DNA from: Geodermatophilus sabuli
Lineage (GTDB): Bacteria > Actinomycetota > Actinomycetes > Mycobacteriales > Geodermatophilaceae
Assembly (NCBI RefSeq): GCF_900215145.1
Contig: NZ_OBDO01000002.1
Coordinates: 124,001-188,000, forward strand
Direction: 5' to 3'
Length of the DNA stretch: 64,000 nucleotides
Of the stretch, positions 20,530 to 42,954 are shown one piece after another; the stretch's first letter is position 1; each line of letters opens with the position of its first letter. The notes under the pieces were generated by a model, which did no database searches, was not told the DNA's origin, and was given only the letters and a program-made list of their open reading frames with translations. Both the position numbers and the translations under genes were made by a program.

Positions 20530-20550
20530 GCCGAGATCGCCGGTCTCGGC
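20530..20550. repeat. Palindrome P1 (pair left of the DUF559 gene)
   Basis: GCCGAGATCGCCGGTCTCGGC, arms CCGAGA / TCTCGG. Member of a four-copy family in this window (also 20570-20590, 21525-21542, 21560-21586). Confidence 0.85.
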
Positions 20551-20569
20551 ACCTCTCGCCGTCGATGCC

Positions 20570-20590
20570 GCCGAGATCGCCGATCTCGGC
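20570..20590. repeat. Palindrome P2 (pair left of the DUF559 gene)
   Basis: Arms GCCGAGATCG / CGATCTCGGC around a single central C, 40 bases centre to centre from P1. Confidence 0.85.
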
Positions 20591-20645
20591 AAGAGCCTGT
20601 GGACGACGGCAGCGAGGGGATGCCGATTGCGGCAGCCTCCCCGCG

Positions 20646-21524
20646 GTGCCCAGCCGTCGCCCGCGATCCCGGCTCACCGGTCCCGCCACCCGTGCCCTCG
20701 CCCGCTCCGCGGGGATCTCCGACCGGGGGCTCCGGCACCCCGCCGTCGCACGGCTGTCGCGCGACACCTACCTGCCCCGGGCTCTGACAGGTGACCGGGA
20801 GGCCCGGCTCGCCGCGGTGCTGCTGACCGCGCCGCCCGGTGCCGTCCTCAGCCACCTGACCGCGGCGGACCTGTGGGGCGTCCAGGTCCCGCTGAGGGAC
20901 CGGGCCGACGTGCGCACGCACCTCATCGTGCCCGGGGGGTCATCGGCCGGCAGCCGGCGCGACCGCCAGGTGCACCGCACACCGCTCACCGAGGACGAGA
21001 CGACCCGCGTGTCCCGGCTGCCCGTGACCACCCCGGCGCGCACGTGGCGCGACCTGGCCGGCGTGCTGCCGCCCGAGGCGCTGCTCGCCGTCACCGACCA
21101 GTTGCTGGACGGGCGGTGTTCCCGCGCCGACCTCGCGCACCAGCTGGCTCGGCGTCCCACCGGCCGGGGCTGCGGGCGGGCGCGCGACGTGCTGCCGGTG
21201 GGCGATCCACGGGCCGAGTCGCCGATGGAGTCGGTGCTCCGGTGGCTGGTCCACGCGGCCGGCCTGCCGGCGCCCGTGCTGCAGTACGTCGTCCGCGACG
21301 CCTCCGGCACGGCATTGGGGCGCGCCGACCTGGCGTGGCCGGAGCGCAGGGTCCTCGTGGAGTTCGACGGCGACGTCCACCGCGAACGCGACGTGTTCGT
21401 CAACGACCTGCGCCGCCAGAACAGGCTCGTCGCGGCGGGATGGACGGTCCTGCGGTTCACGTCGGCCGACGTCCTGGGCCGGGCGGACGAGGTGGTCGCC
21501 GAGATCAGGCGGGCCCTGCGCTGA
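20646..21524 (+). CDS. AbiEi-like N-terminus fused to DUF559 (Vsr-like) nuclease-type domain
   Basis: About 292 residues. The N-terminal ~150 residues resemble the winged-helix/AbiEi antitoxin-type region that often precedes DUF559 (VARLSRDTYLPRAL, AVLSHLTAADLWGV, VHRTPLTEDETTRVSRLPVTTPARTWRDLA). The C-terminal ~95 residues are DUF559, a relative of the very-short-patch-repair/PD-(D/E)xK endonuclease fold: SPMESVLRWLVHAAGLPAP, GRADLAWPERRVLVEFDGDVH (candidate metal residues Asp228, Glu239, Asp241) and LVAAGWTVLRFTSADV. Nuclease activity is inferred, not shown. GTG 20646 is chosen; an ATG at 20565 would place palindrome P2 inside the coding region. Paired palindromes bracket the gene on both sides, and it interrupts the purine cluster. 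Confidence 0.75.
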   Translation: MPSRRPRSRLTGPATRALARSAGISDRGLRHPAVARLSRDTYLPRALTGDREARLAAVLLTAPPGAVLSHLTAADLWGVQVPLRDRADVRTHLIVPGGSSAGSRRDRQVHRTPLTEDETTRVSRLPVTTPARTWRDLAGVLPPEALLAVTDQLLDGRCSRADLAHQLARRPTGRGCGRARDVLPVGDPRAESPMESVLRWLVHAAGLPAPVLQYVVRDASGTALGRADLAWPERRVLVEFDGDVHRERDVFVNDLRRQNRLVAAGWTVLRFTSADVLGRADEVVAEIRRALR

Positions 21525-21542
21525 CGAGATCGGCGGTCTCGG
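21525..21542. repeat. Palindrome P3 (pair right of the DUF559 gene)
   Basis: CGAGATCGGCGGTCTCGG immediately after the DUF559 stop codon; imperfect member of the family with arms CGAGA / TCTCG. Confidence 0.8.
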
Positions 21543-21559
21543 CGCCATGGTGTGCTGAT

Positions 21560-21586
21560 CCCGCCGAGATCGCCGATCTCGGCGGG
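21560..21586. repeat. Palindrome P4 (pair right of the DUF559 gene)
   Basis: Perfect 13-bp arms (CCCGCCGAGATCG / CGATCTCGGCGGG) around one C, 39 bases centre to centre from P3, nearly the same spacing as P1-P2. Confidence 0.85.
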
Positions 21587-25330: not shown

Positions 25331-25360
25331 CAGGGGCAGAAGTGGCCATTTCTGCCCCTG
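25331..25360. terminator. 30-bp near-perfect palindrome ending the purSQL operon
   Basis: Arms CAGGGGCAGAA / TTCTGCCCCTG with the inner bases GTGGCCAT, so only one pair (G-T) interrupts a full 30-bp palindrome. Seven bases after the stop of the sterol-carrier-like gene; likely terminator, though the symmetry also resembles the repeat families at 2318 and 20530. Confidence 0.7.
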
Positions 25361-41317: not shown

Positions 41318-42954
41318 CGATGCCCCCTCCCCCCGAGTGGGACGTCGTCGTCGTGGGCGCCGGGACGTCGGGCGCGCCGCTGGCGGCCCGACTGGCCGAC
41401 GCCGGACGCCGGGTGCTGGTGCTGGAGGCCGGCGCCGACCACGCCCGCCCCGAGGACTTCCCGCCGGTGTTGCGGGACGCGGCCGCCATGGGCGCCGCCG
41501 TGCCCGGTCACCCGGCCAACTGGGACCTGTCGGGGATCCTCACCGAGGAGGTCACCTTCCCGGTGCCGCGCGGCCGGGTCGTGGGCGGGTCGAGCGCGCT
41601 CAACGGCGGCTACTTCATCCGGGGCACCCGCGCGGACTTCGACGGCTGGGCGGCCGCCGGGAACGACCTGTGGTCGGCCGACCGGGTGCTGCCCTCCTTC
41701 GTCCGCCTGGAGTCCGACCGGGAGTACGGCGACCGGCCCGGCCACGGCAGCGCGGGGCCGGTCCCGGTGCGGCGTCCGCAGGAGGGGCACCCCCTGGCCG
41801 ACGCCTTCGCCGCCGCGACCGGCGATCTCGGCTTCCCCGCCGAGCCGGACAAGAACGCCGACGGCGCCCCGGGGTACGGGCCGGTGCCGCTCAACGTCGC
41901 CGACGGCGTGCGCGCCAACACCGCGATGGCCTACCTGTCCCCGCGGCGGGGGCACCGGGGGTTGACGGTGCGCGGGGGCGTGCACGCGCGGCGCGTCGTC
42001 GTCGAGGCCGGCCGCGCCGTGGGCGTGCAGACCGACGACGGCGTCGTCCGCGCCGCGGAGGTGGTGCTCAGCGCCGGCGCGGTCGGCTCGCCGCAGCTGC
42101 TGCTGCTCTCCGGCATCGGCCCGGCCGACGACCTGCGCGCCCTCGGCATCGACGTGGTGGCCGACGTGCCCGGGGTCGGGTCGGAGTTCACCGACCACCC
42201 CGACCTCTACGTCACCTACCGGCCGGCCCGCCGGCTGCCGATGCCGCGGGACCTCCACCCGCTGCACGGCGTCCTCCACACCACCTCCGACGGCGGCGGC
42301 ACCCCCGGCGACCTGGAGGTGATGCCCTGGCTCAAGCCGTTCAGCCGGGTCATGCTCGACCGCTCGGCCGGCTCCCGGCTGGCCGGCGTGACCGACGTGC
42401 TGCGGCGCCCGGCGGACACCGTGCGCGCCCTGCGCGGGGCCTCGCTGCACCGCCTGGTCGACACGGCGCGGCGCCGCGACGACCTGTTCCTCGGCGTCGC
42501 GCTGCAGGCCGAGGACAGCCGCGGACGGTTGAGCCTCACCTCGGCCGACCCGCGCGTGCAGCCGCGGATCGAGTACCGCTACCTCACCGAGGCGTCCGAC
42601 CGGCGGCGGATGCGGGAGGTGGTCCGGCTGGCGGCCGAGCTGCTGCGGGCGCCGTCCCTGGCCCCGCTGGTGGCCGAGCGGACCGGCCTGCCCGACGACG
42701 TCCTGACCGACGACCGGCAGCTGGACCGCTGGGTCCGCCGGCACCTGGCCACCGCCGTCCACCTGGCCGGGACGGCGCGGATGGGACCGGCCGGCGACCC
42801 GGGCGCGGTGGTCGACCAGCACCTGCGCGTCCGCGGCGTGGAGGGGCTGCGGGTGGTCGACACCTCGGTCATGCCGTGGGTGACCACCCGCGGGCCGGCC
42901 GCGACCGCGGTGATGATCGGCGAGCGGGCCGCGGAGCTGATGACCGGGGCGTGA
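41314..42954 (+). CDS. GMC-family FAD oxidoreductase (choline dehydrogenase-like)
   Basis: 546 residues. N-terminal FAD motif DVVVVGAGTSGAPLAARLADAGRRVLVLEAG, GMC signature 1 GGSSALNGGYFIRGTRADFDGW, signature 2 SAGAVGSPQLLLLSGIGP and the catalytic His in ATAVHLAGTARMG near residue 487, with VVDTSVMPWVTTRGPAATAVMIGERAAEL at the end. GMC enzymes oxidise alcohols to aldehydes; the substrate is unknown but the gene is coupled to an acyl-CoA-synthetase-like gene, suggesting alcohol-to-acid-to-CoA processing. GTG 41314 overlaps the previous stop; an ATG at 41320 is equally in frame. Confidence 0.88.
   Translation: MTMPPPPEWDVVVVGAGTSGAPLAARLADAGRRVLVLEAGADHARPEDFPPVLRDAAAMGAAVPGHPANWDLSGILTEEVTFPVPRGRVVGGSSALNGGYFIRGTRADFDGWAAAGNDLWSADRVLPSFVRLESDREYGDRPGHGSAGPVPVRRPQEGHPLADAFAAATGDLGFPAEPDKNADGAPGYGPVPLNVADGVRANTAMAYLSPRRGHRGLTVRGGVHARRVVVEAGRAVGVQTDDGVVRAAEVVLSAGAVGSPQLLLLSGIGPADDLRALGIDVVADVPGVGSEFTDHPDLYVTYRPARRLPMPRDLHPLHGVLHTTSDGGGTPGDLEVMPWLKPFSRVMLDRSAGSRLAGVTDVLRRPADTVRALRGASLHRLVDTARRRDDLFLGVALQAEDSRGRLSLTSADPRVQPRIEYRYLTEASDRRRMREVVRLAAELLRAPSLAPLVAERTGLPDDVLTDDRQLDRWVRRHLATAVHLAGTARMGPAGDPGAVVDQHLRVRGVEGLRVVDTSVMPWVTTRGPAATAVMIGERAAELMTGA

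Follow-up and report, generated by a model that had tools for sequence, protein, structure and literature searches.

Why is a single protein-coding gene enclosed on both sides by paired palindromes, and is the protein it encodes connected with them? The question is raised by one locus in the window, by which we mean the whole stretch of 64,000 nucleotides of Geodermatophilus sabuli DNA analysed here. A gene for a protein with AbiEi-like and DUF559 parts, having a hydrolase gene and purS as neighbours, is surrounded there by four palindromes of 21 nt, grouped in two doublets of 61 nt (no strand assigned to either). The left doublet (20530-20590) consists of P1 (20530-20550) and P2 (20570-20590), the right one (21523-21583) of P3 (21523-21543) and P4 (21563-21583), and the left doublet as a whole is an imperfect inverted repeat too. 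The original prediction that four palindromes stand in two pairs around one gene is confirmed: with up to three mismatches allowed, the palindrome matches the window 10 times over both strands, corresponding to five places, whereas shuffled sequences gave 0.03 matches on average. The predicted spacings of about 40 and 39 nt hold for the left pair; the right pair has the same start-to-start distance, exactly 40 nt. All copies in the window had been placed around this gene, which is true of four, the fifth (41812-41832) being an isolated, weak match. P3 not only touches the stop codon, as had been noticed, it overlaps it (TGA 21522-21524). We argue in the following that the AbiEi-DUF559 protein and its palindromic repeat, about 57-62 nt long, probably constitute a two-part element, in which the protein would bind, cut and spread or convert its own repeat.

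A pattern search of the complete genome of this strain (up to three mismatches) revealed 12 doublets composed of two half-palindromes 40 nt apart, which, being palindromic, match on both strands, and a 13th with a spacing of 41 nt. A reversed-pattern control for 40-nt doublets gave no match in this genome. In the clearest copies, the inner bases GGCATC...GATGCC turn the 61-nt doublet into an imperfect hairpin as a whole. A covariance model, described below, finds 30 matches here, that is about 15 elements, as both strands match. Another genome contains three palindromes in tandem, with a 40-nt period, made up of two doublets that overlap (G017:C1:273687-273783).

The search for 40-nt doublets near DUF559 genes, suggested originally as a check, thus bears out the doublets, and the window repeat is found at one of the seven paralogues in this genome. 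We had considered this palindrome as a mark of all own-genome paralogues and rejected the idea, its sites not adjoining the six others; some of these six are flanked by palindromes of their own. Two short DUF559/Vsr genes of the same genome (L188 and L189), tried as members of the system, were likewise set aside, as their flanks showed no inverted repeat above the threshold used. The clearest second case is a paralogue on contig 14 (C14:943392), 39% identical to the window gene and flanked by a different palindrome, unrelated to that of the window. This palindrome occupies 20 sites in the genome, two of which are the paralogue's own flanks and one of which, AGGGGCAGAAGTGGCCATTTCTGCCCCT, lies in the window (25332-25359, no strand assigned). 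It is also present in 4 of 25 other genomes of the genus. Two copies bracket an orthologue of 64% identity in genome G060, and one copy adjoins an orthologue of 78% identity in genome G053.

To how many genes does such an arrangement apply? A family survey gave matches at E 1e-40 or better in 62 of 112 genomes. An orthologue of the window gene (47-75% identity) is present in 59 of the 112 and is single-copy in 53 of these 59; matches below 47% identity were excluded, as were three genomes whose sole match is a paralogue of about 40%. Judging by 60 named loci, the relatives belong nearly all to Geodermatophilaceae (Geodermatophilus, Blastococcus, Modestobacter, Trujillonella). What we call the clade comprises 63 orthologues with flanks and the window gene, 64 genes in all (a 65th match, in G036, was cut by a contig end and excluded); 14 distant family paralogues were treated besides. 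In an uneven sample of genomes from across the phylum, 53 of 148 carry AbiEi-DUF559 genes, annotated at present as DUF559 or AbiEi antitoxin, among other names.

The left and right flanks of each gene were compared by strict local alignment, a score of at least 20 counting as a match. An earlier, less stringent score had been abandoned, since 45 of 739 control positions reached 30 or more with it. Flanks match in 56 of the 64 clade genes, compared with 2 of 1047 pseudo-gene positions, these taken from family loci only. Matching pairs were also found in 6 of the 14 distant family paralogues, in 13 of 27 phylum genes (from a first set of 29 loci, two having been excluded for short flanks) and in 17 of 40 further genes from 12 phylum genomes, so that 30 of 67 phylum genes possess one (27 genomes, 18 of them with at least one such gene). 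When left and right flanks of different phylum genes were combined, none passed, either between genomes (0 of 4110) or within the same genome (0 of 312). Where present, the flank pair is therefore private to its gene. One genome, G145, illustrates this well, 6 of 10 genes examined showing a flank pair of their own. The 8 clade and 37 phylum genes lacking a matching pair at the threshold count against the explanation we favour.

These numbers bear on an alternative in which common bidirectional terminators, or hairpins that stabilise mRNA, resemble each other by chance. The repeats do form strong hairpins, are mostly intergenic and often lie near stop codons and between convergent genes. Chance resemblance, however, does not agree with repeat sequences that follow the gene lineage, nor with 30 of 67 matching pairs against 0 of 4422 mismatched ones. 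A simple terminator was dropped because the T-run signature is absent at the window locus, and a known RNA family because Rfam matches in the searched stretches (window locus and four further loci) lie far below the gathering score, none reaching it. We regard this alternative as hardly credible.

The flanks also help to locate the beginning of the gene. Its longest open reading frame (20565-21524) starts at P2, and this is probably not the true start, as residues 1-20 are poorly predicted (pLDDT below 50 in the predicted structure) and a motif, CTGTGGAC at 20597, also present before related genes, does not keep the gene frame in 16 of 61 of them. In four related genes, an in-frame stop separates a CTGTGGAC-type motif from the gene body. 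The in-frame GTG at 20646 is the likely start, giving a gene that spans 20646-21524 on the plus strand and encodes an AbiEi-like winged-helix and NTase-like region followed by a Vsr/I-Bth0305I-like nuclease. Directly inside the left repeat lies the conserved motif CTGTGGACGACGG (20597-20609, plus strand), probably non-coding according to its recurrence and the frame test. Of the 64 clade genes, 62 have its core TGTGGA[CT] upstream, as have 9 of the 14 distant family paralogues and 3 of 29 phylum genes, compared with 17 of 2494 background windows; we take the motif to be DnaA-box-like.

Repeat number was also related to gene presence across genomes. The covariance model, built from 80 flanking repeats picked for hairpin score, was run over the 112 family genomes, counting both strands, including gene flanks and scoring up to 48 candidates. 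The median number of matches is 30 in the 59 genomes with the gene and 1 in the 53 without it (Mann-Whitney p 4.8e-17, relatedness being handled by within-genus comparison only). Within genus g9, none of the six genomes with the gene falls below 9 matches and none of the 17 without it, some of them incomplete, exceeds 2, a perfect separation (p 1e-5). Many repeats also occur in several genomes in which no clade gene was detected (47 matches in G056, 28 in G057, 25 in G009, 20 in G007), which counts against our explanation; further exceptions are G109 (17) and G002 and G018 (16 each). In G009 the gene was then found at the purS site, and G056 and G057 have kept a solo repeat there.

As to dispersed elements, G006 possesses two clade genes that differ in the type of their flanks, and all 20 elements examined out of about 31 could be assigned by eye to these types, 16 to one and 4 to the other. 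In a nearest-flank test, 5 of 12 elements of this strain had their nearest gene within the same genome, as had 1 of 20 elements of G006 and 1 of 20 of G017, the median ranks among clade genes being 2, 3.5 and 20, respectively. This is no clean one-to-one match, and we count such a weak result against the favoured explanation; it arises because relatives share types and because G017 holds types whose gene is absent from it. About 10 of the 20 dispersed elements in G017 (L303-L320) are of such an orphan type, the gene of which was not found in that genome; the type flanks a gene in G012, and neither of G017's own two.

Comparison of orthologous positions shows these sites in several states. Forty of the 64 clade genes have purC or a hydrolase gene on one side and purS on the other, two have only one of those neighbours within the examined stretch, and 22 are located elsewhere, in 10 groups. 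One gene (L129), compared with L145, shares its site with the largest of these groups, has the opposite orientation and carries another repeat type, so that the sites number about ten in all; this shared site adjoins a gene that reads, as we assume, like smpB. Of the 53 genomes in which the clade gene went undetected, 28 were examined around purQ. Seven junctions could be resolved, the upstream anchor being missing or other DNA intervening in the other 21. Three (G053, G021, G002) hold neither gene nor repeat, three (G056, G057, G058) hold a single repeat and no gene, and one (G009) holds the missed gene. Clean absence of gene and repeats from gene-less purC-purS junctions, as originally anticipated, is thus found in three genomes, with a single repeat in three other, gene-less species. 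On its face the latter speaks against the prediction, yet we prefer to see in it a solo-repeat state of the same system, since two of these three species have a copy that can be aligned with either flank of a gene-bearing allele: compared with gene-bearing relatives, G056 and G057 have both flanks intact, and the flanks share a single repeat where they overlap (59 and 50 nt, respectively). G021, aligned in the same manner, is devoid of the gene and of both repeats. Among genus g9 genomes without the clade gene, other palindromes occur on the purC side, after purC (L333, L341), that of L341 being in the style TGAGCC...AATGGCCATT...GGCTCA.

Such a set of repeat-gene-repeat, solo and empty states, together with about ten genomic sites, could also be expected of a conventional mobile element, consisting of the gene and long terminal inverted repeats, with dispersed copies as MITE-like, internally deleted remnants and the transposase encoded elsewhere. 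Target-site duplication is not evident at the junctions compared by eye (two empty and three solo sites), which we also count against our own explanation; the gene, unlike most transposons, occurs only once in 53 of 59 genomes, and the trait that tracks the repeat lies within the AbiEi-DUF559 protein itself (see below). We therefore hold a conventional element with a distant transposase to be very unlikely.

Of 51 dispersed copies, a coding heuristic places 44 outside genes. Convergent gene pairs surround 16 of the 51 and divergent pairs 2, and many copies are situated within 20 nt of a stop codon. Their positions are mostly not shared between species, four locus pairs being common to 20 elements of G006 and 20 of G017. 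At some orthologous intergenic sites (L294/L302, L295/L314 and L028/L312, compared by eye) the repeat type varies from species to species, suggesting that repeats have been replaced or converted.

What kind of protein is involved? Pfam detects DUF559 in the window gene (E 1.2e-9) and AbiEi_1 only below its cut-off, and the PADLOC AbiEi model matches at 1.5e-14, which upholds the AbiEi-like region and DUF559 domain that had been recognised from the letters. The AlphaFold2 model of the protein has a pLDDT of 89. No Foldseek match reached E 0.001 by itself, and statements on the fold rest on re-examination of its matches with VIA-align. The nuclease part resembles I-Bth0305I (3r3p; Z 12.1, rmsd 2.2 over 90 residues) and Vsr (1cw0, Z 9.8; 1vsr, Z 9.3); AbiEi (6y8q) aligns over residues 32-213 (Z 10.7) and Rv2827c with Z 9.1. 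Further matches of the protein are NGO0050 (Z 11.7) and TnsA (Z 6.2). As modelled, the fold is that of an AbiEi antitoxin joined to a Vsr/homing-endonuclease-like nuclease. Residues E222, D255, D268, H272 and D281 are invariant in 51 proteins, so the nuclease domain is likely to be active. In 17 diverse members, a Pfam scan found DUF559, MTES_1575, AbiEi_1, AbiEi_4 and DUF2726 only, and PADLOC AbiEi models matched all 17; no HUH or Y1 transposase domain appeared in the Pfam scan of these members or of the window gene.

Protein and repeat also vary together, most clearly at residue 54. Protein identity correlates with repeat similarity (Spearman 0.41 over 61 genes, with 0 of 999 permutations as high), and the correlation comes to 0.44 for the AbiEi-like part versus 0.18 for the nuclease. 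The best single column is residue 54, which in the model lies in a short helix (53-56) before the wing strands, the predicted recognition helix. By eye, W54 pairs with CTCGTGGC, S54 with GTGG types and R54 with several others, K54 often occurs with CTCGCCCC and E54 often with CTCGGGGC; the half-site classes contrasted for R54 and W54 are CTCGGGC/CTCGCACG-type and CTCGTGGC-type, respectively. At least two TCGTGG[CT] half-sites are present at 27 of 28 W54 genes versus 1 of 33 others, the row of this single exception being gapped at position 54. Altogether, residue 54 tracks four repeat bases. On a tree calculated without residues 1-99, the residue and the repeat trait change five times each, largely on the same branches by eye. 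Independent pairs number two with good support and five at most, neither of the two running in the opposite direction; with so few, a tree-aware sign test cannot reach 0.05, which we count against our explanation. In our judgement, the AbiEi-like part very probably binds the repeat.

Binding alone would also fit the co-variation at residue 54 if the repeats were operators of a regulon and the AbiEi-like protein an autoregulated transcription factor, with nothing moving at all. According to PMC7319586, the promoters of AbiEi and Rv2827c contain inverted repeats of 23 bp, arranged in pairs, to which these proteins bind, with the third helix of the winged domain serving recognition. The left repeat of our gene is on the promoter side. 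The second copy past the stop codon, the prevalence of convergent over divergent positions (16 versus 2 of 51), the mostly different locations in G006 and G017 (four locus pairs for 20 elements each) and the conservation of nuclease residues speak against this possibility. We consider a regulon unlikely.

The two-part element that we prefer could work as follows. Winged helices of the AbiEi type from two monomers would bind the two inverted half-sites of a repeat, in the way in which AbiEi and Rv2827c bind inverted repeats that occur in pairs, and the fused Vsr/homing-endonuclease-like domain would cut at the bound repeat. Repair might then copy the repeat into or over other sites, a homing-like chemistry with a RAYT/REPIN-like result, and copying by repair would keep each repeat family matched to its protein. 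Repeat-gene-repeat would represent the autonomous form, recombination or excision of which would leave one solo repeat; solo repeats would be relics or targets of the gene-bearing form. The palindromic symmetry of the target would account for both gene orientations at one site. That the nuclease part cuts at the repeat is plausible and, in our judgement, probable; that the repeats spread or are converted as a result of cutting is somewhat less certain, although we lean towards it. On a broader generalisation our opinion is evenly divided: AbiEi-DUF559 proteins may be phylum-wide selfish or domesticated nucleases that recognise their own palindromes through one helix and, by break repair, copy or convert them throughout the genome, older repeat types at shared intergenic sites being overwritten in the process; this would be an HUH-independent drive of the homing type with repeats as its object.

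Comparison with known systems puts these observations in context. The AbiE type IV toxin-antitoxin system shares with our protein the N-terminal winged helix and NTase-like region of the AbiEi antitoxin; the AbiEi-DUF559 protein differs by its fused nuclease and genome-dispersed repeats, and no AbiEii toxin gene stands alongside at the purC-purS site (in the window and at the 40 of 64 clade loci with annotated neighbours). The nuclease shares its fold and the order of invariant acidic and histidine residues, presumably of the EDxHD type, with Vsr and the homing endonuclease I-Bth0305I. Unlike Vsr and homing endonucleases, it is attached to an AbiEi DNA-binding part and tied to palindromic repeats, and no intron or intein context was seen around the AbiEi-DUF559 genes. 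VsrA of Caulobacter, likewise a DUF559 protein, has a different role, tied to cytosine methylation according to PMC12907096. TIRtrons, as outlined in part of PMC3733652, are RAYT-like genes between long terminal inverted repeats which form moderately abundant families; they resemble our loci in having a gene between inverted repeats and differ in their enzymes, which are tyrosine transposases, and the words actinobacteria, mycobacterium and streptomyces are absent from the main text of that paper. A literature search of titles and abstracts, with most subscription papers and preprints outside its range, gave none linking DUF559 or AbiEi proteins with REP-like repeats.

The closest parallel is the RAYT/REPIN system, which the original prediction had invoked. 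RAYT genes usually occur in one copy per genome, and the AbiEi-DUF559 clade gene is similarly single in 53 of 59. According to an excerpt of PMC3116915, RAYT genes are flanked by palindromic doublets dispersed in extragenic space, and their lineages have repeat classes of their own; likewise, AbiEi-DUF559 genes lie between copies of a dispersed palindromic doublet with lineage-specific repeats. Like a REPIN, the latter forms one hairpin; its stem comprises 26 pairs, 23 of which have changed on both sides (in a set selected by hairpin score). Differences are equally clear. Our repeats occur in tens of copies, compared with 430 REP doublets reported for P. fluorescens SBW25 in that excerpt, and their hosts are Actinobacteria. 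By eye, none of the 80 aligned repeats has the GTAG foot of REP palindromes, feet being mostly of the CGAG/TGAG type. Above all, the enzyme is AbiEi joined to a Vsr-like nuclease, not Y1/HUH. The parallel thus stands as regards doublets, dispersal, gene association, copy-number coupling and co-variation, and fails in the enzyme feature which defines RAYTs. We regard AbiEi-DUF559 proteins and their repeats as an enzyme-repeat partnership not recognised before. If they maintain private repeat families, the RAYT/REPIN arrangement would have arisen a second time from an unrelated enzyme, and the persistence of bacterial repeat populations would become testable in another enzyme class; they also offer a testable residue-to-base code and a candidate source of intergenic palindromes in high-GC genomes. 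The AbiEi-DUF559 protein is not a RAYT, though its way of life is RAYT-like.
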